DNA of 23,952 nt from a virus: the IMG/VR virus record IMGVR_UViG_3300020445_000074, positions 1 to 23,952 of that record; one strand, written 5' to 3'. The notes beneath the pieces are model-generated. The model worked only from the letters and a program-made list of their open reading frames with translations. It did no database searches and was not told the origin of the DNA. Position 1 is the stretch's first letter. Every line of letters starts with the position of its first letter. Shown here piece after piece: positions 3,276 to 21,600 of this stretch. The translations under genes were made by a program, and so were the position numbers.

Positions 3276-3823
3276 TGGCAGCTTTTGGACTAACAACTGG
3301 GGTTTGTACTGGTCACGGATGCTGGCCACCCCAAGGATATGCCCCTTCACCCGTCACTTCGGTGATGGTAACCAAAATTCCACCTCTTGTAAGCACACAA
3401 ATAAGAAATGTGCACTGCAAACCGTGTGGAAAGAACCCTGCGTGCCATCCTGGCACTGTTTCTGTTGGTTGTGCGACTGTTTTATGTGGTGTAGGTGCTC
3501 CAGCAACTCCAGTGGCGGTACCAAAGGGTGCAGATCCAGAGACAGAAGCAATATTAGCGAAACTTGCACCTAAGGTATGTGCTACTAGGTTACCCAGTGC
3601 TAAGATTGGCACATCAATTAGTTGTGGATCAAAGGTTGCGGTAGGTGCCCCTAATGTGTTATTATGTAAAGGTGGTGACTCAGTTAGCAAACTTGCTGCT
3701 TTAGCTGCTACAATGGCATCATTAGGGATGTTCCCTATTCTATCGATTCCTTCTATTGGAGGAGGTGGTGGATCTGGATCACAATCCCCTGGTGACAACT
3801 CCGTAACTGATTGTTCTAATTAA
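3275..3823 (+). CDS. PAAR-like spike-tip protein, 182 aa
   Basis: PAAR proteins cap the beta-helical central spike of contractile tails (gp5.4 in T4) and bind a metal ion at the tip. The sequence shows a Gly/Pro/Val-rich chain with a VCTGHGCWPP start and many possible metal ligands: C11, H14, C16, H47, C48, C51, C57, H58, C66, C71. A later PAAR-style segment, PSAKIGTSISCGSK followed by VGAPNVLL, lies at about residues 105-130. Residues about 134-160 are strongly hydrophobic (LAALAATMASLGMFPILSI) and lead into a Gly/Ser tail, which is unusual for a bare PAAR tip. Position before gp25 and gp6 fits a baseplate role. The start is fixed by the TAATG overlap with the upstream gene. Confidence 0.75.
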   Translation: MAAFGLTTGVCTGHGCWPPQGYAPSPVTSVMVTKIPPLVSTQIRNVHCKPCGKNPACHPGTVSVGCATVLCGVGAPATPVAVPKGADPETEAILAKLAPKVCATRLPSAKIGTSISCGSKVAVGAPNVLLCKGGDSVSKLAALAATMASLGMFPILSIPSIGGGGGSGSQSPGDNSVTDCSN

Positions 3824-3960
3824 TGGCACTTTATTCCAACACTAACGACAAAATTGAACCGACCCCTAAAAAGACCCGTCAAGGCTCTGGTGCTCACACT
3901 AAGTATTCTGCTACTTCACGTAATAAGGCACGTAAACAGTACAGAGGACAAGGACGTTGA
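3823..3960 (+). CDS. small basic hypothetical protein, 45 aa
   Basis: ATG shares TAATG with the stop of the PAAR gene. The product begins MALYSNTNDKIEPTPKK and ends KARKQYRGQGR. It is strongly basic and rich in Lys, Arg, Ser, Thr and Asn, and probably unstructured. Short basic proteins of this kind are, from memory, frequent in cyanophage structural clusters, but no function is known to me. The close coupling on both sides and clean codon structure support a real gene. It could bind DNA or an acidic virion surface; that is speculation. Confidence 0.72.
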   Translation: MALYSNTNDKIEPTPKKTRQGSGAHTKYSATSRNKARKQYRGQGR

Positions 3961-4094
3961 AATATACTCAAATGTGGGACAAAGTAGCAAAACTCTTGAC
4001 AGCACTCTCCAAACGAGATGATGTAGTGTATCGAGTTAAGGCTACTCCTGAATCTGTTGATGCTAAACTTTGTAAGATTGGGGAATTTAGGTGA
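3957..4094 (+). CDS. small hypothetical protein, 45 aa (TTG start) or 40 aa (ATG 3972)
   Basis: A frame ending at TGA 4092-4094 can start at TTG 3957 or ATG 3972. The TTG is favoured: it overlaps the previous stop as TTGA and has AGAGGA at 3943-3948, 8 bases upstream. The ATG has no ribosome site at proper spacing. The product is MKYTQMWDKVAKLLTALSKR (TTG start) followed by about 25 residues ending KIGEFR. It has an amphipathic helix at the N-terminus and is basic. The downstream SET gene starts at GTG inside this stop. Family not recognised. Confidence 0.55.
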   Translation: MKYTQMWDKVAKLLTALSKRDDVVYRVKATPESVDAKLCKIGEFR

Positions 4095-4390
4095 CATACC
4101 AAGCATTACCCAAATGCATACACGTAAAAGATAGCCCTGTCGCTGGACAGGGCTTATTTGCTTTAAGCGATATACCTGATGACGTGTATCTTGGTATATC
4201 ACACGTTGTAGTGGATGATGACATTATGAGAACACCTTTAGGAGGGTTCGTTAATCATAGTGAAGATCCTAACTGCATCAAAGTATTTGAAGAGGAAGAA
4301 TGGGGGAAGATATATCATATGAGAACTATTAGAGAGATTAAGAAGGGTGAAGAGCTGTTTTTGAAATACACTTTCTATAAGGTAACTTAA
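4091..4390 (+). CDS. minimal SET-domain protein (putative protein-lysine methyltransferase), 99 aa
   Basis: GTG start overlapping the upstream TGA (GTGA), with GGGGA at 4080-4084, six bases upstream. SET signatures appear in the right order: GxG-LFA near the N-terminus (G19-Q-G21-L-F-A24, cofactor side), G52-F-V-NHS (N55-H56-S57) followed by P60-N61, and a C-terminal R-x-I-KKGEELFLKY block (residues 81-93) with Y93 and Y96 as candidates for the active-site tyrosine. SET proteins transfer methyl groups from S-adenosylmethionine to lysine side chains. At 99 residues this is shorter than ordinary SET domains (about 130) and than the 119-aa chlorovirus vSET, so the variable middle insert is nearly absent. 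Its substrate is unknown; a virion or host protein is possible. Catalytic activity is inferred only. Confidence 0.75.
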   Translation: MTYQALPKCIHVKDSPVAGQGLFALSDIPDDVYLGISHVVVDDDIMRTPLGGFVNHSEDPNCIKVFEEEEWGKIYHMRTIREIKKGEELFLKYTFYKVT

Positions 4391-4396
4391 AAGTCG

Positions 4397-4403
4397 CTAA
4401 ATA
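4397..4403 (+). promoter_or_regulatory. putative T4-type late promoter before gp25 (CTAAATA)
   Basis: GCTAAATAAA lies in the 34-base gap between the SET gene and gp25, about 21 bases before the gp25 ATG. It repeats the GCTAAATA seen at 260-267. gp25 has no obvious Shine-Dalgarno sequence. The motif resembles the T4 late -10 box TATAAATA. Confidence 0.5.
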
Positions 4404-4424
4404 AAGTGACGAATGATCTTGTAG

Positions 4425-4823
4425 ATGCCAAAGACGGTTAACTTTAAGGATGTATCCATTTCATTGGGTATGAATCCAGTAACCAACGACGTTCTTACAA
4501 TTACCGACGAAGCTGCGGTAAAAAGAGCGTTATATAATATTGTGATGACCAGGAAGGGAGAAAGATTCTTTAAACCCGATCTTGGTAGTAATGTAGCGGA
4601 TTTATTGTTTGAACCATTAGATTCAGCGACAGCCTCTCTTTTACAAGAAGAGATTGAATATGTCATCATCAAATACGAACCACGTATTAACTTAATTCGT
4701 TGTGATGTAGAAGCCAATTACGATAGTAATGGTTTTGATTGCGCAATTTCATTTGAAATTATCGGAATAGCTTCCGATGTGCAAATTCGTGATGTAGATT
4801 TCTTCCTAGAAAGAACACGATAA
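4425..4823 (+). CDS. gp25: baseplate wedge subunit gp25
   Basis: Homologue of T4 gp25 and of the sheath-initiator family of contractile machines. It forms part of the inner baseplate next to the gp6 wedges and nucleates sheath assembly. The 132-residue length equals that of T4 gp25. Diagnostic motifs match: MTRKGERFF (T4 has TTRKGSRPF), a following PDLGSNVADLLFE (T4 PEFGCDLSDQLFE), and YEPRI at about residues 83-87, which carries the EPR core. It is followed without a gap by gp6, as expected for proteins that bind each other. Confidence 0.95.
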   Translation: MPKTVNFKDVSISLGMNPVTNDVLTITDEAAVKRALYNIVMTRKGERFFKPDLGSNVADLLFEPLDSATASLLQEEIEYVIIKYEPRINLIRCDVEANYDSNGFDCAISFEIIGIASDVQIRDVDFFLERTR

Positions 4824-6638
4824 ATGTCCTACGTTCAAGTTGCCAATTTAGACTTCACAGAGATCAAATCTTCTCTGAAGGAATACCTGCGCTCTAATAG
4901 CGAATTTACTGATTACGACTTTGAAGGTTCGACTCTATCTACCCTATTAGATGTACTAGCGTATAACACGTACTACACGGCGTTTAACGCTAATATGGTA
5001 GTTAATGAGGCGTTCCTTGAATCAGCGACCCTCAGGGACAATGTGGTCTCTCTGGCGAAACAAATCGGGTATCTTCCCAAGTCATCTGTAGCTCCAACAG
5101 CAGTTATGAACATTGCTGCTGACTTTAGCACAGAAAACAATATTCCCTCTATAGTTAAACTCCCTAGAGGATCACAATTCCTTACCAGGATAAACGGTAC
5201 TACCTATTCCTTCATTACAGCAAAAGATTATGTTGTAGGACTGAATACACAAAGTATAGCAAATTTCACTGATGTTGAGATAAAAGAGGGTAATTATGTT
5301 CTTGAAACATTTACGTTTAATGGTGCCATTCCTCAAAGGTTTGTACTTCAAAACCCAGGGATTGATACAGGTACTCTCAAAGTCACTATTAGACCAACAT
5401 TTAATAGTACTAGTGTGGTTGAGTACCGCCTAGCAGAAAACATTATAGGCTATGATAGCACATCACAGGTCTTCTTCTTACAAGAAGGTGAGGATGAGCG
5501 TTATGAGATTATATTTGGAGACGGTATACTAGGTAAGAAATTAGAAACAAACAATTATATCGAAGTATCATATATTACAACTAATGGTGCATCTGCTAAT
5601 GCTGCCAGAGTGTTCTCATATGGTGCTGTATTAGAGGATAGCACTGGTGCTAGTGATTATGCTCCTTCGATTACATTAACCACTACTACAGCAGCATCTG
5701 GAGGCGAAACACTTGAATCGATTGATTCTATCAAAAGAAATGCTCCGAAGTTTTTTAACTCACAAAATAGGGCAGTTACCGCAGATGACTACGAATCCAT
5801 TATCCGTCGTATTTTCCCTGCAATTGCTGACATCGTTTGCTATGGTGGAGAAGACGCTAGCCCACCAGAATACGGTAAAGTTAAAATCGTAATCAAACCA
5901 GCATATTCTTCTACGTTATCTCAATATACTAAAAACCTCATCTCTACAGATCTTAAGAAGTATGCTGTAGTATCGGTGACACCTGAAATCGTTGATCCTT
6001 CGATTACATACGTTGAATTGAATTCAAACGTATACTATAACAAGTCACAGACAACTCTAAACAAATCAGAGTTGAAAGCAGAGGTAATATCTGGATTAAC
6101 TAACTATAGATCAACATCTGATCTAGAAAAGTTCAATGGTAGGTTTAAATACAGTCGTATAGTTGGTATCATCGATGCTACTGATACTAGTATCACTTCC
6201 AACGAAACTTCTATTAAGTTAAGAAAGGATTTTGTTCCTGTATTAAATACAGTAACACAATATGAAATTTGTTACCAGAACCTTATTAAGAGTGGATGCT
6301 CAAATCCTTCTGTACAGAGCAGTGGCTTTGTAGTTGCGGGTTATCCAAGTGATGTGGTCTACCTAGCGGATGACCAAAAAGGAGGTATTTACCTATACAA
6401 GATTGACCCTACTACTCAAGAGAGATTTGTTCTCAATGCACAGCAAGGAACAGTTGATTACGAGAAAGGAGAGGTAATGTTGAATCGGTTAAATATAATC
6501 AAAGGAAGTTATGATGATGAAAGGATTGAACTTCGTGTCATTCCTTCCAACAAAGACATATACGCTTATCGTGAAGCATATCTAAGTTTAGATTTGCAGT
6601 CTAGCGTATTCCTGATCACCCAAGAAGCACTAATCTGA
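4824..6638 (+). CDS. gp6: baseplate wedge subunit gp6
   Basis: The ATG follows the gp25 stop directly. gp6 dimers form the continuous ring of the inner baseplate and bind gp25, gp53 and gp7. At 604 residues it is close to T4 gp6 (660). The N-terminal part has the helical stretch typical of gp6 and J-like wedge proteins (FEGSTLSTLLDVLAYNTYY, then NEAFLESATLRDNVVSLAKQ and GYLP). The middle has a J-like stretch with SIKRNAPKFFNSQNRAVT followed by DDY and PPEYGKVKIVIKP. Position between gp25 and the gp7-like gene supports the call. No anomalies seen. Confidence 0.92.
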   Translation: MSYVQVANLDFTEIKSSLKEYLRSNSEFTDYDFEGSTLSTLLDVLAYNTYYTAFNANMVVNEAFLESATLRDNVVSLAKQIGYLPKSSVAPTAVMNIAADFSTENNIPSIVKLPRGSQFLTRINGTTYSFITAKDYVVGLNTQSIANFTDVEIKEGNYVLETFTFNGAIPQRFVLQNPGIDTGTLKVTIRPTFNSTSVVEYRLAENIIGYDSTSQVFFLQEGEDERYEIIFGDGILGKKLETNNYIEVSYITTNGASANAARVFSYGAVLEDSTGASDYAPSITLTTTTAASGGETLESIDSIKRNAPKFFNSQNRAVTADDYESIIRRIFPAIADIVCYGGEDASPPEYGKVKIVIKPAYSSTLSQYTKNLISTDLKKYAVVSVTPEIVDPSITYVELNSNVYYNKSQTTLNKSELKAEVISGLTNYRSTSDLEKFNGRFKYSRIVGIIDATDTSITSNETSIKLRKDFVPVLNTVTQYEICYQNLIKSGCSNPSVQSSGFVVAGYPSDVVYLADDQKGGIYLYKIDPTTQERFVLNAQQGTVDYEKGEVMLNRLNIIKGSYDDERIELRVIPSNKDIYAYREAYLSLDLQSSVFLITQEALI

Positions 6639-6641
6639 TAA

Positions 6642-9600
6642 ATGGCAGGTCCAAGTCTAGCAGCACTGATAGAAAGTCAGTTACCAGACTTCGTTGTCGA
6701 GGATTATCCCCTCGTCACGAATTTTCTGTCGAAATATTATGAAGCTCTATCGATAAGTGAAGGTCCGCAGGACATTATCAACAATTTTGAGAAATATCTC
6801 GATGTTGATACCTTCTCACCAGAGATTTTAGTTAAGACTGCTAGTTTAGCATTAGAGATAGGGGCAGGTACGACTAATATCGATATTACAGTCGATAAGA
6901 CTGATGGCTTCCCTGAAAAGAGTGGAGTTATAATGATCGATCAGGAAATTTTCCTGTATACGTCTAAAACAGACACTCAATTCTTAAATTGTGTCCGTGG
7001 TTATAACGCAAAGACTAAAATTGGTAGTTTGTACGAACCAATTAAGTATGTTGAGTCTAATAGTGCAGTACATAAGCAATATGCAGTTGTTAATAACTTA
7101 AGCAACCTATTATTGGCTGCTTTAATTAAGAATTACGAAGAACAATACACTAGTGGTTTCCCATATCCTTATCTCAGAGATCAGACGAATAAGAATCTCT
7201 TAGTTAAGAGGATTAAGGACTTCTATCGTGTTAAGGGTACCCCACAGTCATTGGAATTTGTTTTCCAAATGCTGTTTAGTGTCAAGCCAGACATTATATA
7301 CCCAAAGGAGAATGTATATAAAGCATCCGAGTCTGGATGGAACAATAAAGAACTTTTAGTAGTAGAAGCGATCTCTGGTGACATTAGAAAGGTCGTTGGT
7401 AATGAAATAATTCAAAGTACAGACCCATACAACCCAGAACTGACTGCTGCGTCTGCGATTATCGATAATATAGTCGGTGAGCCTTACCAAGGTAGTCTAC
7501 AGTACACTTTAACTGTTTCTCCTGGAAGTAAGAAGGGTGTTTTCGCTATAGCACGTCGTTCATTCCTTATGAATGACCTTCAGAAGACTGCTGGACCTGG
7601 AGATCGCATAGATGTCTTCTCTACAGTTGGATTCCCTGAAAAAGACGGTCGTGTTATCATAGGTATTGAAGAAATTACCTATAGTAGTAAAACATCAACT
7701 CAATTTATCATTAAAGAGAGGGATGCATTAAATACCGACAATAAACAAGAGTATATTCATAAGAAAAATGTCAGATGCTTCACTAAGAACAACCTAAGTG
7801 GATTCTATACCGAAGATGGTGTTCAGGGAGAAGTTAAACTTCGTATATACGGTCTTGTCTCAGGATTGACCTCCAAAGGTATCCAAGCTGATGCTTCTGC
7901 TGGTCTAGAGTACGATGAGACCGCAGACAACTACTTCGATGTTGCTGCTGGAGGCATCCCATATGTTTCCTTCAACAATATGGTTGAATTCAAGTCATCT
8001 GGATTCTCAGACGAGGCTCCATTGACTAATGAGTGGATTATCAACCAAGATTTTTCAAAGTTAACAGGTTCGGATCCAAGTAACGTAGGATCTAACAATA
8101 TTAAGGATAAAGTACTCTCGGATGTATCTGCAATCTATAGAGACAAAGAGAATTACTATATTGCGTCTTCTGGATTCCCTTCCTATGCAATTGGACCATT
8201 TGATAACATCAAAATCCCTCAGGACCAAGAGCATCTTAAGATTATCCCTAGGCAACCAATAGATGCCAGTTCTAAGAACATTACAACCTCAACAGAGGTT
8301 GGTGTTATGGTTAATGGTGTTCCTTTACTCAATCATAAGTCATCTAGAGGTCTAGACTTTGGTAAAGTCGAATCTGTAACCGTTACTGACTCAGGTAGGA
8401 ATTATAGTGTTCCACCTACTGTTAATATTGAAGGTAATGCTACTGCAACTGCTGAGATTAACGGATTAGGTGAAATTATTAAGGTTAATGTTACAGATCA
8501 AGGATCTGGGTATACCAGTACTCCAACTGTCACATTCACTAGTGGATCAGGTGGTTTATTCACTGTTTTGATCCAACAAGGAGAAATTTCCAACATTTAT
8601 CTTTCTGTTAACTCACAGGCTGAGATTATTGATGCTGGATCCGATTATACAGAGTCGCCAGATGTTTATATCTACGATGCAAGTGGAAAAGGACGTGGTG
8701 CACTCTTTAGTTGCCAAATAGATGCCACAACAGGTAAGATCACTGGATTCACTAAGCAATCTGGTGGATTCGACTATGAGGAAGCTACTACAACTATTAC
8801 ATTGGTACCTAGATCAAAAGCAGCAGAAGCAAGTGCTGTTTTGACCAGATGGCAGTATAACAGGTACTTAGAGATGCCTGTTGACAATGGAAACAGTGCT
8901 GGTATCGTTGAAACTGCAAATGACCCTAATTATGGTTATTCATATGGTCATATCGTTTCTCCTACCTCTTTAAAGATTTTAAGAAACGATAATGTTGATG
9001 GTCAGGGTAACCCAATAGCAAATAAGAGCCATTCTCCTATTATGGGATGGTCTTATGACGGAAATCCCATTTATGGTAGTTTTGGTTACGAAGATGTCTA
9101 TCAAGACGTTACTGCGAGCAGTCCTACCATTAAAAGGTTGAATTCCAGTTGGAAACTCAAAACAAGCAGAGTATCCGATGCCCCAAGTACAACTGAGTAC
9201 TCATTAGGTCGTTTTACTAATGATTATGAGTTTGAAGAGCGTTTAGGTGACCTAGATGCTAATAATGGTCGTTTTTGTACAACCCCCGAATTCCCAGAAG
9301 GAACTTATGCTTATTTTATGACTTCAGACGATCAGGAGGCACCAACCTTCCCATATACGATCGGAGAAGCATTTTATAACGTACCAGTTGAAGAAAACTG
9401 GAAAACCAAGTCTAAACAGTCAGAATTGCCAGATGACGTTCGTAGAAGGACAGTTAATGCTAATGATCAAGGTGGAGAGCTATTAACCTCTAGAGTTAGT
9501 GGTATTGAGTATGGGCCAATCACAAATATTGAAGTTCATCAATCTTCTTTCAATTTCACCAATGAGGATGTTCTATATGTCGATAATTCCATCAATGACA

Positions 9601-12600
9601 ATGGAGATGGGTTATTTGCTGCTGTAGACCAAATTCAAGGTCAGACAGTTGAATCATTGACTTGTAACAGTCCTAAGAACCAATATTTCACTTGTGACAC
9701 TAATGTCTACTTAAATCACACTGCTGTAATCACTCAGGAGAATACTGGTGCTACAGCAAACGTTATTGGTAAGATAGACGAGAATGATAGGTTCGTTGTA
9801 AAGAATGTTGTAGGTACTTTCAATCTAACTGATAATATTAACTCTACAACAGAGATTTACAATATAACCTTTGATTCTGGTGTTACTGCTGCTGTAGGAG
9901 ATAGAGTCGTATATACAGAAGCAGACGGTGGTGTAGCACACGAAGTTGCCGTTGGTAAGGTATTGCGCAATGTAGTAGATAAGAACACTCTTATCATCGA
10001 ATTACAGTTTGCTAACCCAGATAAATTGACTACCATCCTAGATGGCGTTACAGTTACTATTCCAGCATCTCAATATAACAAGCTTGGGTATTTTGCTGAT
10101 GGAAATGGTTGTTCAGTCAATGCAGACGCTGCAACTATTGTAAATGTAAGGTCTCTATCCAAAGGATTTAAATTATTGGACATTGAGTCTAATATTGCTG
10201 TTCTTAAGACATTAGATAAGCAGCACGGTCTAGCAGTTGGTGATGAAGTCATCGTTACTGTCCAACCAGACTCTACTATCTCTACACAAAGGTATGATGT
10301 TGAGACTAAGAAGTATCATACTATAAAATTATCAGAACCCTCAAAAACCAGTGATATCAATGGATCTGGGGTAGCAAGATTACAACTTATTAATGCTGGT
10401 AGTGGATTTACTCCTTCAACTACCTTCAATCAGGTCAACCTTACCAATAGTACTGGTACAGGTTCTGCTGGTACAGTAACTGTTAACACAGATGCTGATG
10501 GCCACGTTTCTTCATTCGTTATCATTACTAAGGGTGATGGATATCAGTATGGAAACGTTGTAACTATACAATCTAGTCTTCTAGGTGGTAATGTCAATAG
10601 TCAGGAGTGTACATTCTTTGTAGATGCTGCTGGTTGTTCTAAAACTGATGCTATCATCACACTTACCTCATCATCTGGGTTCTCAATTGATGACACCATA
10701 AGAATTACTGATGAAGAGTGCAAGATCACTAATGTTGATGGTAACAACATCACTGTAGACCGTGGAGTTAATGATACAGAAGCAGAAGACCATATTGAAG
10801 GTGCATCTGTTGAACTATTAACTAAAGCATACAGATTTACAAAAGATACTTCTATTTCCTTTAGTGGAGCTACTGCTTATATCGATACTTATGATTCAAG
10901 CACTCAAGAGTTAGTTCTCTACTATCAGAATGAAGGTGACACCATAATCACCACCTCAAATACTTTCTTGGATGGAAGTACTCCTGCGAAAGTCGTTCCT
11001 GTCACTGATGTTCCAGCAACATCACTTAGATTCCGATTTAAGAAGAATGGAGAGACTGAATGGAAGAGAAATATCAGCCTAGACATTCAACGGACATATC
11101 GTTACCTATTTGATACTAGCGATGCGTCATTGGTCAATAGAAACCTTAAATTCTACGAAAACGTTTATAAGACCACTCAATTATTACAAGCGTTCCAGTC
11201 AACCATCAAACCAGGCAATACTGGAGCATTTACTTCTTTCCAGTTGGGTTATGGTATCCCAATAGACGGTACTATTTGGAATAGTACACCTGTACTAGAT
11301 ATTCCTCCTAAAATTTACTATGGAGAGGTATCCGAGAAGATAGACAGTGAGAATGCATTCTTTAGTCTTGTTGAAGACCCATTTGCAGGAAAGCACGCTG
11401 TCTTCTATGGATATGAGTATGAATTTGCTTATAGGCTACCAGCAACTCCTCAGAATGAAGGATTTACTAATGTACAATACTATACCGACTCTCTATACGC
11501 TGTAGGAGCGATTAAGAGGGTTAAAGTCATTAGTGGTGGTAAAAACTACACAATGCCACCTCAGATTCCTGGTGTCTTCTTAAACAAGCGTTTCAGAGGT
11601 AATTTCACACCAAATATCACTGAAGGACGTATTGTATCTGTTACAGTTACCGATACAGGTTTAAATTACTCAAAACCAATTGTATTACTTGAAAATAAAG
11701 GAAATGGAGCAAATGCTAAGTTTACAGTCGAGTTAAGAGCAGATGGAAGTGTAAGTCGTATTATTCCAACCGATGAAGGTATTGCATACGATGCAGACAC
11801 TACATTGCGTCTTTATGAGTCCGATGTCAAGATGTTTGCCCACGGAGACGATATTGGTAAGCTAGCAACCCTAGAAATCATATCTTCAGGTAAAGACTTC
11901 AATAATGACCCAACTTTAAGTCCACAAGTCAATCCACCCATTGTAATGACTCTAAAGGATATGCCAGACAAGGCATTCTTGAATGGAGAGCTAATTACGC
12001 AAAGAAACCTTGGTGGAGACGTAATTGCTTCGGGTAGAGTCGATTATTGGGTTGATGGAATGAATATTCTTCGATTGAAGGGTATTTACGGAAAATTCGA
12101 TAATAGGTATTCAATTTACGGTGAAACACGTCGTAGCACTGCAAATATCCAAGTTATCTACGTTGCAGACATATCTCCCCAAATTGGACCTACAAGTACT
12201 TCAGTTGGTTCATATTCGAGTGATAGAAGTAAATTAAGTGCGGTTTCGCAGAAAGTCCAAGATGGAGTCTATTATCAAGATTATTCTTACGTAGTTAAGT
12301 CTACAATCTCTATTAACGACTGGAGAGACTTTGTTAAGCGTTTTACCCATCCTGCTGGATTTAACCTCTTTGGAGAGGTATTAATCGAGTCTCAAGGTGA
12401 CGGAACGCAACCAGAGACAATTGACACTCCACAATCGGGTATTAAGGATAATGGCTTCGGTGCTGTTATTAGTATCTTGGAACCAGGCGTTCTTGGTGTT
12501 ACATCTTTACATAAGGCAACAAGAATTACACAATCCCACGTTAGAGTCGATTCTATGTCGAAACAGCGTGGTAAGGGAACTATTAACTATAGTGAACAGA

Positions 12601-15600
12601 ATAACGTTGAAATTGAAGTATTTGACCTAGCAATCTCACCATCCTTCGATGGCTCTGTACAAGCAGATGGTACAATCTCTGGTACCACTACATTTACATT
12701 ATTCAAGAAAGACATTAACGAGGTACTATCTCCGTTTAGAGCACAACAATTGATTGTTACATTGGATGGTGTTCTACAGGATCCTGATACTGCTTATACA
12801 ATTAGTGGATCGACTATTACCTTTGCATCTCCACCATTAGGTCCATATATTGATGCTGCTACTGGTATTGCAGTTCCTGGAGTCACTTTCTACGGAAAGT
12901 CGATGAAATTCCAGGATGATGCTAATAATGCTGAATATATGAGAGAAGCGACTAATATCACTTCTTTATTCGATGGTACTAGTACAGACTTCGCTCTTGG
13001 TATACCAGTTGTAGATGGGGATCATTTATTCGTATCATTAGATGGTGTTATACAGGAACCTGATGTTGCTTATACACTAACAACTAATCCTGGTAATGGC
13101 GAAATCAAGTTTACTGAAGCTCCAAGACAAGTTGGTAAGATTGTTGAATTAGAAATCGGTGATGCAACCAATTGGTTGGTAAATGACTATGTTGTTGGAC
13201 AAACTTCTGGAGCAAGAGGTGAAATCGTTGCTAAGAGGTATTTCCAAGGTAACAAGTTCTTAGATGCTGCTAATATCATTGATAACAATGCTTCTGTCCT
13301 AGCAGAAGAAGCAGTTGGTATTCTGGATGATACAAGTAAGTTTGGATCTGAATATTTCCAGTATCCTGGTCTAGGTAGAAACCAATGTATCGTTGATCTT
13401 AAGTCTGTTCTTAGAGCAATGGCAGATGACCTCATTCAAGGAGGTAATGCTAACACTTATGACGCTGCTAAGGAGTATCTACTCACACCAGCATCAGCAA
13501 CATCTGATATTAAGCATATTGAAGGTGAAGTAGAAGCAACTCTATGGGCTATGAAGTATTTGAAGGATATGACTATCCTTGCGGTACGTAATAAGTTTGG
13601 TATAGACAATCTATATGATTATCAGAGAGCAGCAGCATCTACCTTTAGGTTAACACCTACAGGTGCTACCTACAGTCCTTCTACTGGTACATTTGTACTA
13701 ACAATAGTAGATCATAAGCTTGAGGTAGGCGACTTTATCACCATTGCTGATAATGCACTAAAATTTAGTTGCACAATGGGAACTGGGGATAAGACTTATC
13801 CAAGACAAGGAGATCCTGCTTATAGATCAACTCTTCAGGTGACACAGAAGACCGATGATACTATTACAGTTAATATCGGTACAACATCTAATATTACTCA
13901 TACTCCTACAGCTGGTTCATATGATCCTGCAACAGGTCTTATGACCTTGGATATTGGATCACATAACCTTGCACCTAATACTGCTGTTAAGATCGCTGGT
14001 AACTCACTCTCATTCAGTTGTGAGATGGATGATCAGGCTACAGTCAAGACTTATCCTAGAACAACCGATCCTTATTATGACACTGCTGTTAATATCGTAA
14101 GTACTGGATCTACATTCCATACTCCTACTACTGCATCATATAGCGGTACTACAGGATTTATGACTGTTACCGTTCCAGATCACGGATTTGAGAATGGAGA
14201 TAAGGTTAAACTTGTTGATGGTGCTATAACCTTCAGTTGCACCTATGGTGGTGGAACTCACAACTATGTTGGTGGAACTGCAACTAATGCAGTCCAAGTT
14301 ACAGGTGGATCTCAATTTGACGTAACTGGTGCATCATATAATCCTACTAATGGTGACTTACAGTTAACTATTGGTAGTCATAGTCTTACTAATACAGATA
14401 CTATTGTTATCTCTGCTGGATCTTTAGACTTCAAATGCGATGAGGACAATTATGCTACTACCCATTCTTACCCTCGCACATCAGACCCTGTATATAATAA
14501 GACCCTGGGAATTACCTCAGTGGGTGGCACAACTATTACAGTTAACGTTGGTGTAAGTTCTCCAGGCTCTGCATATCCTCGTCCTACTGATCCTATCAGT
14601 GGTAAGTTTATGCCTATTTCAAATGTAAGTCAAAATACATTTGATATACAAGTATTAGACACAATCCCATCTACCAATACCGATACTCATACCTATGTGA
14701 GTGCATTAACTAACGGTGTTGAATTAGAGAAGGGTACAATTACTCTACAGGTTGGTACAACCTCTAATGTATCACATAATGTTTCCTATGGTACCTATGA
14801 TCCTGTAACAGGTGATATGGAGTTGACTATTGGTAACCATACTCTTCCAGCTAACACAAGTATTAAACTATTAGACAACTCTCTAACCTTTAGTTGTACT
14901 GAGGGTAGTGGTGGACAGTATTCGTATCCTAGAACAGACGTTACTAACTCTACTGCGACTACTGGAACTACCTATAACCCAACAACGGGTGTAATGGCAG
15001 TTACCACAACAACAAACCACGGTTTAGTTAATGGTGATTGGATTAAGTTTGCTGATAATTCATTATCACTAAGTTGTGACTATGGTACCACTTCTCACAC
15101 TTATGTTGGTGGTACAGCAGTTAATGCCGTGGCATCTGGTGGTACTAACTTTAATGTCATAAACGCTGCTTATAACCCTGCAAATGGTGATATGGTATTG
15201 ACCATTGGTACACATTCATTGTCTACCTCTGACACCATCACTATCACTGCTAACTCATTATCATTTACCTGTGATGCAGATAACCACGCTACAACTCATA
15301 CCTATCCTAGAACTACTGATCCTAAGTACAATACATCGATTGATATCGATGCTGTAGATCAAGGTGCTGGTACTATTACTGTTAACGTTGGTGCAGCATC
15401 TGGTGGACAGACAAAGACATATCCAAGAACAAGTGATTATGCAAGTGACAGATGGTTAAAGGTATCTAACGTAAGTTCAACAACATTTGAAGTTACTGTA
15501 CTAGACATTATTCCTTCTACCAATACTAATACACACGTATTCGTTTCTTCTACGGCAGATGGTATCAGCAAGAAGAAGGATCCAATGCACGATGCTGCTA

Positions 15601-18600
15601 TTAACATTAAGTCAGTAACAACTACAACGATTACCATTAATGTATTAAATACTGCTCCTTCTACCAATGTAACTCCACATACTTACGTCACATCACTTCC
15701 TGGTGCAGTTATTAGTGGTGGTGCTTATAACCATAGATTTATTTCAGCTGCTGCTGATTCTATAACTTCTGGTGGTGACTATGCGCATACATTTGTAGAA
15801 TCAACACAAAATTCAATCGGTGTATATGAAGATCCATACAATATTGACAACCCTGTAGCAAATACATTCATCGATGCTGCGAAATTAATCTCTGACAACA
15901 AATCATTCGTTTCTGAAGAAGCAGTAGCAAGAATGGCTACTGGAACATTACAATCTGTAAGTGATGCGACATATACACCTGCGACAGGTCTATTAGAACT
16001 AAACATTGGTACTCATAGTTTTACTACTTCTGATTTCGTTAAGATACCAGACAATTCGTTAATATTCAGTTGTACAATGGGTATAGGTAATAAGACCTAC
16101 CCACGTTCATCTGATCCTATTAGTGGTGAAAGAAGACAGATAGAATCAGTCACTGCTAATACACTTACTATTGATGTAGGTGCATCACCTATCGTAAATT
16201 ACGATGTTTCTGGTGCAACATACAACCCTACTACGGGTGATATGGTATTAACAGTTGGTTCACACAGTTTACCTGTAGGTTCTCACGTTAAACTTGCCGA
16301 TGACTCATTAACATTTGAATGTCTTGCTGCTGTTGGAACTCACATCTATAGCGGTGGAACATCTGTTAATGCTATAACAATAACTGCTGGTAGTGTACTG
16401 AAAGATGTAACTGATGCTTCATACAACCCAACAACGGGTATATTGGAGATGACTATTGGTTCTCATAGTTATACAACTAGCGATACTGTCACAATTGGCC
16501 CTGATAAGATAACCTTTACTTGTGACGCAGACAGTCACGCTACTAACCACTCATATCCAAGAGCAACTGACCCTGCATATAATACTGCGATAGCAATTAC
16601 TGCTGTAACAGGAACTACAATCTCTTGTAACGTTGGTGTAGCATCATCTAATAACCAGAGCACATATCCAAGAGCAAGCAGCAATGATTATGCTTACAAT
16701 TCTCCACTAGAGATTACAGCAGCAACTGCAAACACTATTACACTTAATGTTAATGGTGGTCAAGGTCCAATCAGTGTTTCTTCTGCTCATACATTTGTAA
16801 GTGCAACTTCTGGAGCAGTAATTACTGGTGGTAATTATACTCATACATTCCAAGGATCAACAGCACCAATAGAAGTTGGTGGTCTTGCTATTGCTGATCC
16901 ATATTACGACGACGCTGTTTATATTAAGTATGAGGGTACTCCTCTTACTCCTACTGCTGCCACATATGCTCCTGACACTGGAGTTGTGACACTTACTGTA
17001 CCTACACAACAGTTTACTGTAACAGATGCTACCTACGATCCTGTTGGTGGTGATATGGAGTTGACTATTGGTACACACAGTCTTACTACCTATGACAGTA
17101 TTAAGATATCACCTAATTCAATATCCTTTAGTTGTGAGTACAACGGTGTAACTCAATCTAAGACCTATCCTAGAGCAGGTGGTGCTGATTATGCTTATGA
17201 TGTCTTCCTACCAGTCCTTAAAGTCTCTGGAGCTACCATTACAGTTAATGTGAATGGTGGACAGGGTGCTATTAGTCATAATGTTGCTCATACATTCATT
17301 GGTGCTGGTTCTCTAGGTATTACTACAGAGGGTCACGGTTTAAGTAATGGTGATAAGATTAAGATTGAAGATCTATCATTAACATTCACTTGTGCTGAGG
17401 ATGGTAATTCAACCAATCACGCTTATCCAAGATCAACAGACCCAATTAGCGGTAACTGGATCGATGTATCAAATGTTACAACCGATACCTTTACTATTCA
17501 GTGTTTAAACACACTTCCATCTACCAACGAGACAGACCATATCTTTGTAAGTGCTAAAACTAACAGTATTGTTAAGCAAGATGATGTAATCATATGTAAC
17601 GTTGGTAAGTCTTCTAATACTAGCCCTCATCAATTTGTTGTTCAGACTGGTAAGACACCAAGTGCTGCTTCTTACAATCCTACAAATGGTGTGATGCAGT
17701 TAACCATTACTGAGCACGGATGGAAGAGTGGAGACTTTATAAGATTCGATGATAACGCCCTTGTATTCCGTTGTGACGAGGATGGACAGGGAACTGACCA
17801 CTCTTATCCTAGACCAATTACAACCACCTTCACTGCTGGTGCAGGTACCTCATATGATCCTAGTACTGGTGTACTATCGATAGATGTAGGATCTGCTCAT
17901 AACCTTTCTAATGATGATTGGATTAGATTAGACGATGGTGCTATAACATTTACTTGTGCACAAGATACTAATGCAACTCAACACGCATATCCAAGATATA
18001 CAGATTATGCAAGTGATAGATGGTTCCAGATTTCAAATGCTAGTGGCCAAACATTCGAGATTAATATTTTAGATATAATTCCTTCTACTAATACTACTGC
18101 TCACGTATTTGTAACTGGGGCACCAGATGGCATTAAGCATAGACAGGATCCTAATACAGGTCAGTTCTTACAAATCACTAAGATTGATGACGATACTTTC
18201 AGTGTAGTTGTTAACACTACATTACCTTCCAGTAACGTAACTACCCACGTATTCCAGTCTGCTGTTCCTAATAGTGTTAAGAGAGCGACTATTCTAACTG
18301 GTGGTGCTTATACTCATACATTTGATAGAGCACTATCTGATGCTGTTACTGCTAATACTGGTGCTAAGTTTACACCTACTGCTGTAACATTTGATCCTGC
18401 AACAGGAGATGTAGTCTTTAACATTGGTGCTGGACACAGCCTAACTGATAGCAACACCATTACCATTGCTCCTAATTCCATCTATATGAGATGTAATATG
18501 GATAGCAGTGAGACTCCTCATTCATATCCTAGACCTTCTGATCCTGCATATGGCAGAACATTGTCTATCAAGTCATATGATGATGGAGCAGGAACTATAA

Positions 18601-21600
18601 GTGTATTCGTTGGTAAATCAGAACCTATAGCATACGAACCTACAGCAGGTAGATACGATCCTGCTACAGGTGATGTACATTTAACTATTGGTACACATAG
18701 ATTGAATAGAGGTGCTGGATTTAGATTCTTCCATAACGCAATATCATTAACTTGTGGTATGGACAGTCACGCAACTGTCCACACATATCCTAGAGCATCT
18801 TCACACGATGCACTTGGTGATTGTGTTGATGATGTTAAGGATATTTTAGAGGCTATTGTATGGAACCTTAAGTATGGTGGTAACAACAGAGTTTGGGATG
18901 CTGCTGATCTATTCATTGATAGAAGAGGATTCTTAGATCATATCCAACATCAAGTACCAGAAGTACTTAATGTAATGGGTCATCTTAAGACTGTTCTCTC
19001 TAATGTAATACGTAATAATACAGTTAGTGCGGTTGGATCACACGGTATAGTACAAATTAAGGATTTAACCATTACTAAAGAGTCTAGTGAATGTGCTGCT
19101 GTAGAATCTGCTGTTGATACATTCGTAGGTCTAATTGAGAATGCAGTACAGAACCCTGCTACATTTGAATCTGGTGTAACTAGAACTATCCCAGAGAGAT
19201 GGCCAGTTGTTCATAGTTCACTAACTGCTAATAGAGATCTTACTATTACTGTTGATTCTATTCCACAGTGTGCTCAGATCGAATCTGCTATTAATACACT
19301 ATTCAGTATTGTTACTACAACTATTCAAGAGGCAGTTTACAACAATAACAACTATCTACTAACTCTAACTCAGGACTTCCCCAATCCTAATAGGATTCAG
19401 GTTGAGATGACCAAGAAGGAATTCCTAAGCAGTGAAGATGTACAGAGTGAAGCATCATTGGCAATTGCCACAGTTTCTAGTGCTAGTGTTATTGCTCCAG
19501 GCGTTCAACAGAAATTCTTCGGTTATAAGCACGGTAAGTATTATAAGTTAGATTCTATTAAGGGTCAGTTTAATAATGCTCAAACTATATTTGAACTAGA
19601 ACGTGGTGGTGTTCCTTTCTATGCAGAAAGAAGTCAGAACGTTGTTGTTATATTGAATGGTGTTATTCAGCAGAACAGAATAGCATATAGAATTGAAGAT
19701 AATATCATTGTATTCCAAGAGGCTCCTTCAGAAGGATCTGCTTGTTTCATCCTATACTTCTATGGTTTAGATCCAGAACGTATTCTACTAGGATTCAACG
19801 TTGAACCTCCTGGTACATTTAAGAAGTTCTTTAGATTAACTGTAGATCAGCAAATCGTTCTTCCTCTAGAGGGTGCAGATTGTTGGGTATCCACTGATTC
19901 TAATGGTGTCAATCATACCTACGTTAATTCTTTTGCTAGAGGTAGAATCTACAAACAGAACTGGGCACTAGGATCTAGAAACCTTCTATTCGTTGAAGGT
20001 GTTACAGCACAGAAAATTAACTGGACAGGTGGTACTTTAAGTATTACTAAGGATAGAGGTGCTTCTGCTTCTCTACTTGACGTTAATATTCTATCAATTG
20101 AAGAGACTACTAACTCTGATCTAAGAGAAAAATTATTTAACAGACAGGATAGATTGAAGTCTAACTTGACTGCTGGTGAAGAAATCCTAATCGATGGTGA
20201 GGCAGATTCACGTTCTATCATTCGTGCTGCTAGAGAAGCACTGGTAACTTCTGGTTATGACAGTGACACTACTGTTGGATCATACTATAGAACATATGAG
20301 TATGAAGTTGTTATCAACGTTGGTGCTTACTCTGGTCAGATTGAAGGAGCTGGTGCACAGGCAGTTGCTCGTATTGATGCAGAACTTAGATATCACACAT
20401 TGACATCTAGTAGACAGGCAGGTTTAGAATTCCTACCTAACGACGTTGTATGTCAGTACAATGATCAGAATGATATTAACTCTGGCATAGTATGGCAAGG
20501 TACAGTTAAGAACTATGTTCCTGCTAGGAAGACTGTAGAACTATACAGTTTATATCTTGACGGTGTTGGTAATACTGATCCAGTTGCTGCTAACTTCCGT
20601 CCTGGCGAAAAGGTTTATATTGATACTGTTGCTGGTACCGAATGTATTGGTCTTCAATATCTCAAACCAGGTGGTGTTAATAGCATCGTAGTTTCTAAGA
20701 GAGACAATACTACTTACTTCGATAACCAGGCTAATTGGAGAAATGATAACGTATTGAATAAAGGACTAGATCGTTTAGGTGGTGGATTTATTCCTGAGAA
20801 TGCCAGTTCTTCAGGTGTCACACAAGAATACGATTACACATCATCAATATATTCAGATGATCTACAACCACAGATATCTCAGAACTATCGTGAACCACCC
20901 GTAATGATCTTCCGTAGTCAGCCTGAGGTTGACGCAAATGGTGATCCAGTTGGAGCACCTGCTGGTGGTGGTGCACGTGCTAACGCAATCACTGTTAGAG
21001 GTGAAATTGCTGATATTGAAGTTATATCAAGTGGTACTGGTTATAGAGTTCCACCACAGGTTCTCTTTACTAGAGGATACTTTGTTATCCGTAAGAACCC
21101 TCTTGATATCAAGAACCTTACTACATTCGGTATTGAACCAGTTGGTCTTGATGGTTCTTGTAACGTCAAATCATATCTTGACACTATCTTTAAGGGTGGT
21201 GCTCAGACTATGTGGAGTAATTGGGCATCTCAAGTTCCATATGGTGTTTCATTAGTATTTGGTAATGCTGGTGGCTCTGCATATCTCCTCAATAGAACTT
21301 CTGATCCTATCATTCACGTTAGGAAGATACTTGATATTGGTGATCTTGCAGTTAAAGGGCAACCTGAAATTTGGATTAATTTAAAGAAACAATATGTAGC
21401 AGTTTCCTATAAGGGAACTAAAGTTACTCAAACTCAGTGCACAGGTGGTGTACAGGGTATCTCTGTTGCAATGACTAAGTTCAAGAATACAGAAACAAAA
21501 CTATCCTGTAACGCTGGTGCTGTTGAGAAACAAGCAGGTAACAACTACTTGATGAGAGGTAATAATTCCTACTCTGCTGGTAGCCTTGGACCTCATCTAA

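Follow-up and report, generated by a model that had tools for sequence, protein, structure and literature searches.

A minimal SET-domain protein of marine cyanophages, predicted to be a lysine methyltransferase carried as mobile cargo

The DNA described here is a virus record of 23,952 bases (IMGVR_UViG_3300020445_000074), the whole of which we call the window. Within it lies a gene for a stand-alone SET domain of just 99 amino acids. The reading we consider probable is that this gene is single-gene mobile cargo, moved by recombination into several tolerated phage slots, and that it encodes a lysine methyltransferase dependent on S-adenosylmethionine whose target, a protein of the host or of the phage, is reached in trans. 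Computation supports the SET fold and purifying selection, as well as the conservation of active-site residues and the movement between loci. The family to which the protein belongs, PHROG 28741, is unannotated and widespread among phages; viral SET proteins as such are a known kind. A search of an open-access library found no paper combining cyanophages with the SET domain, and phage protein-lysine methylation appears to be little studied.

A small SET domain and its family

From its matches to P-SSM7 and P-RSM6, and from its genes for gp25, gp6, PAAR and giant structural proteins, we place the window among the T4-like marine cyanophages (Kyanoviridae), presumably with a host of cyanobacterial type. 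The gene order is PAAR, PHROG 516, a doubtful 45-aa ORF, SET, gp25 and gp6. Further along is an ORF of 5308 aa (6642-22568), the first 1000 residues of which match virion structural or baseplate types; many similar repeats follow.

The SET gene runs from 4091 to 4390 on the plus strand and opens with a GTG codon; most homologues use an ATG one codon downstream, immediately 5' of a Y-x-A-L-P block. Its assignment draws on Pfam, PHROG, AlphaFold2 and VIA-align. The Pfam SET model (PF00856) passes its gathering score over residues 51-93 (E=4.1e-11), and the PHROG 28741 profile, labelled unknown function in PHROGs, matches at full length (residues 1-99 against 1-99 of 100, E=4.9e-55). Three motif blocks stand out: G19-Q-G21-L-F-A, in which the GxG (4145-4153, plus strand) is the expected contact for S-adenosylmethionine; N55-H-S-E-D-P-N61, an NHSxxPN motif at 4253-4273 (plus strand) picked out by column conservation; and G86-E-E-L-F-L-K-Y93 (4346-4369, plus strand), which ends on the expected catalytic tyrosine, Tyr93 (4367-4369), and was identified by column conservation and by phmmer against chlorovirus vSET. 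The initial annotation, made from the letters alone, had called this a very small SET-domain ORF with these same motifs, and so it is. It is also, as that annotation had it, shorter than the 119-aa vSET (PDB 1n3j), but it is not uniquely small, given a Marseillevirus SET protein of 100 aa.

Relatives are plentiful. One scan of IMG/VR returned 257, of which 80 were kept, and divergent queries added more, bringing the family into the hundreds. Among isolates and single-cell genomes, the carriers (with protein identity) are P-SSM7 (79%), P-RSM6 (67%), AG-345-P14 (53%) and the Pelagibacter phage Kolga (45%); Rhodoferax phage P26218 has a distant match at 33% identity. The P-SSM7, P-RSM6 and Kolga records all annotate the gene as hypothetical.

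Conservation was read from 59 sequences, the window protein and 58 representatives sharing less than 85% identity. N55, H56, E88 and Y93 are invariant (59/59). G19 and G21 are present in all 58 sequences covering that motif, S57 in 57 of 59 and N61 in 58 of 59; the motif residues for cofactor and catalysis are the most conserved positions of the protein. The initial annotation had pointed to Tyr93, Tyr96 and the NHS block as the places to look in homologues: the NHS block and Tyr93 are kept, and Tyr96 less strictly, in 47 of 59. The gene is under purifying selection: simple Nei-Gojobori comparisons of the window gene with close relatives yield a finite dS for 117 pairs, over which the median dN/dS is 0.067, and another 63 pairs were saturated. 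The profile matches, the number of relatives and this selection together put the gene well outside anything that chance would produce. The PADLOC library of defence systems gave no match for the protein. Membership of the AnkI/LegAS4 family was considered and rejected, the NCBIfam match being weak, below threshold and confined to the SET part.

Structure prediction tells the same story. A first AlphaFold2 model, built on 22 close sequences, reached a pLDDT of 83 and VIA-align Z scores of at most 8.2. The second, built on 52 diverse sequences, has a pLDDT of 92.4 and a pTM of 0.80, with low confidence at residues 97-99. All 50 matches listed for the second model are SET/PR-domain enzymes (Z 10.4-12.1), among them MLL, SET8, EZH2, ASH1L, SMYD, SETD6 and LegAS4. 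vSET (3kma) aligns over 87 residues with a Z of 11.4, 29% identity and an rmsd of 2.1, the lowest among the matches listed. The initial annotation had made its enzyme claim hang on a predicted fold with a cofactor pocket; the SET fold is predicted with confidence, and the pocket we judge from that fold and the motifs. A search of viral structures added other small SET proteins, including the Marseillevirus protein, a close structural match, and several phage proteins already named SET.

Residues 5-93 of the model span residues 1-105 of vSET, leaving about 16 residues absent; from the motif spacing, these probably lie between GxG and NHS, that is, in SET-I. The post-SET segment after Y93-Y96 is also absent. 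As most of SET-I and the post-SET segment are gone, a monomer may not form a complete lysine channel. One could therefore imagine a SET-fold protein that has kept its shape and lost turnover, serving as a binding module or an inhibitor, and the poorly predicted residues 97-99 would sit comfortably with this. We regard it as improbable all the same, since the cofactor and catalytic residues are the positions that selection has guarded most closely, which is the pattern of active enzymes. The SET fold, the invariant residues of catalytic type and a dN/dS of about 0.07 argue instead that the protein is likely an active SAM-dependent protein-lysine methyltransferase.

The gp25 slot and other sites

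In the window the SET gene occupies the interval between PHROG 516 and gp25 (3960-4425), which in cyanomyoviruses is a cargo slot with contents that vary from phage to phage. Its upstream edge is the Lys/Arg-rich, 45-aa PHROG 516 protein (3823-3960, plus strand) and its downstream edge the baseplate wedge gene gp25 (4425-4823, plus strand; Pfam GPW_gp25, E=7.7e-15). Where cyanophages have no SET gene there, the slot measures anything from 33 to 1239 bp. P-TIM68 fills it with a CP12 protein (Pfam E=1.4e-10), P-SSM4 with a 2OG-Fe(II) oxygenase labelled DenV, S-CAM1 with a product labelled PurM and others with small ORFs. The P-SSM4 label looks to us like a misannotation: the gene (2108-2662 of its locus), annotated denV or DNA endonuclease V, matches the Pfam 2OG-Fe(II) oxygenase family (E=2.3e-07). 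P-RSM3 has the same denV label on a gene at the same place.

A second 45-aa ORF (3957-4094, plus strand, TTG start) overlaps the start of SET. It is a weakly supported gene, with no family match in the Pfam or PHROG search, and only a handful of near relatives have anything like it. The initial annotation had spoken of a neighbouring Lys/Arg-rich product of 45 aa. Such a product exists, at 3823-3960, but it is not the immediate neighbour, as this other 45-aa ORF lies between.

Between SET and gp25 stands a late-promoter-like motif, GCTAAATA (4396-4403, plus strand), within a small predicted hairpin (4393-4410). The pattern xxTAAATA, which resembles a T4-type late promoter, occurs no more than 70 nt 5' of gp25 in all but two of the 74 distinct loci that carry SET (72 of 74; shuffling would give about 10 of all 86 loci) and 5' of SET in only 27 of 163. 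GCTAAATA is its commonest form and departs from the T4 consensus, which leaves it a putative promoter. Its position between the two genes suggests that gp25 can be transcribed without SET. We also considered a mobile unit made of late promoter, hairpin and SET gene together and rejected it: TAAATA lies 3' of SET in nrdB loci and many gp25 loci, and not in others.

The gp25 slot is far from the only home of this gene. In a sample of about 221 distinct genes, biased towards our queries, 106 occupy the gp25 slot and share the strand of gp25 in every case. Another 39 sit beside primase or helicase genes, the arrangement of Kolga, 17 are close to nrdB, the arrangement of P-SSM7, and 58 are found elsewhere. 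Among the remaining surroundings are regions with 2OG-Fe(II) oxygenase and radical SAM genes and places with glycosyltransferase, primase or terminase neighbours. In P-SSM7 the order is nrdA, nrdB, a small ORF, SET, two small ORFs and talC, and its gp25 directly follows PHROG 516 with no SET between. The best DNA match between cyanophage contexts is 284-319 bp long at 84-91% identity, with its limits near the start and stop codons of the gene. A quick tree from few columns needs about 12 changes of context; its well-supported branches alone force at least three changes for the gp25 label and two for nrdB. Unlinked contexts, similarity that stops at the borders of the gene and the changes on the tree together indicate that SET moves as a unit.

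Two observations belong beside this census. 2OG-Fe(II) oxygenase genes recur near SET in loci from several unrelated contexts (L035, L040, L042, L130 and L163), which may only mirror their frequency as phage cargo. And a SET gene 87% identical to that of the window sits at 5001-5294 on a contig binned as a Euryarchaeota metagenome-assembled genome; the locus falls outside the set lacking gp25 or nrdB nearby and looks like a misbinned phage contig.

Could SET nonetheless be a tail-specific enzyme, made with the late genes to methylate a baseplate or tail protein, or packaged in the virion? We think this unlikely. The idea keeps some weight, since no other site was sampled as often as the gp25 slot and a protein of phage P26218 fuses a tail-fibre-like N-terminus to a SET domain; vSET, moreover, is packaged in PBCV-1 virions (PMC7019647). 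Against it, close relatives sit after nrdB, as in P-SSM7 with its 79% identical protein and a gp25 region free of SET, the gene is missing from hundreds of cyanomyovirus records that have PHROG 516, and the slot is elsewhere filled by unrelated cargo. The late-promoter-like motif between SET and gp25 also suggests that their transcription is separable. The initial annotation's link to the baseplate is left without support by these unrelated loci, the DNA similarity that ends at the gene, the varying cargo and a gp25 with a promoter-like motif of its own. Linkage to baseplate genes is not a conserved property of the gene, with 106 of about 221 in the gp25 slot and the rest elsewhere.

Substrate and function

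A proposal in the initial annotation, offered there as speculation, was that the Lys/Arg-rich neighbour could be the substrate. PHROG 516 does lie upstream in most SET loci of the gp25 context, and three of its lysines (K16, K27 and K38) never vary. Yet those lysines are equally invariant where there is no SET gene, and of the phages behind 449 PHROG 516 records only three (P-SSM7, P-RSM6 and AG-345-P14) carry SET. In P-SSM7 the two genes are unlinked, and near SET in the nrdB, oxygenase and Kolga contexts no match to PHROG 516 was found. A search for a substrate by lysine signature, comparing carriers of SET with non-carriers, picked out no PHROG 516 lysine specific to carriers. We accordingly regard the proposal as very improbable. 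Some lysine columns of gp25 do differ between carriers and non-carriers (K44 in 67% against 0%); none is universal among carriers, and the differences may follow phylogeny.

We return, then, to a mobile methyltransferase acting in trans. A stand-alone, minimal SET-fold enzyme would transfer methyl groups from S-adenosylmethionine to lysines of other proteins. Its gene would recombine as single-gene cargo, filling in this phage the slot between PHROG 516 and gp25, and its target would belong to the host, or be a phage protein that the carriers share, and would not be one of the baseplate proteins encoded next door. Of the initial annotation's lysine methyltransferase, the SET fold and the blocks for cofactor and catalysis stand, the activity is what they lead us to expect, its suggestion of a baseplate target is weak, and its other suggestion, a target in the host, stays a candidate. 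Room is left for a late-expression or virion role, since about half of the sampled genes lie in the gp25 slot on the same strand.

If vSET, which acts on histone H3, and Go1-SET, which acts on MC1-alpha, are a guide, the first candidate for a target would be a basic protein of the host that associates with DNA or RNA. More tentatively, at less than an even chance, we suggest that in marine cyanophages and SAR11 phages a minimal SET enzyme with a mobile gene methylates some protein of the infected host (of the nucleoid, transcription or translation, for example), much as vSET does but in bacteria. A small, conserved enzyme whose mobile gene is widespread in phages of the ocean and missing from most cultured relatives has the look of a host-takeover or auxiliary function. 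The cultured carriers P-SSM7 and P-RSM6 are Prochlorococcus phages, which makes all this directly testable, and a host target, if shown, would raise the importance of the family.

Relation to known SET proteins

The nearest precedent is vSET of the chlorovirus PBCV-1 (A612L; PDB 1n3j and 3kma), likewise a small, stand-alone viral SET domain. The C-terminal motif blocks of the two align (phmmer, residues 46-93 with vSET 60-105). vSET is packaged and acts on host histone H3 (PMC7019647), and the title of a 2003 paper cited there describes it as dimeric. It differs in length, 119 aa against 99, and the bacterial hosts of the phage family have no histone H3.

Go1-SET of Methanosarcina mazei, which methylates the DNA-binding protein MC1-alpha (PMC3980110), is a prokaryotic SET enzyme too, and Methanosarcina relatives turned up in our genome scan. 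It is, however, cellular and longer; one Methanosarcina relative has 131 aa. The alignment with the phage protein is confined to the second half.

Other tailed phages have SET domains of their own: uncultured Caudovirales (in BFVD), ORF62 of Stenotrophomonas phage Ps15, and PHROG 34170 of Rhodoferax phage P26218. The P26218 protein, P26218_30 (3416-4291 of its locus), has 291 aa; its N-terminal part matches short tail fibre PHROGs, and in the SET domain at its C-terminus the GxG, the NHS and the final tyrosine are retained. Where their length is known, these proteins are larger or fused, in contrast to the mobile cyanophage family of fewer than 100 amino acids.
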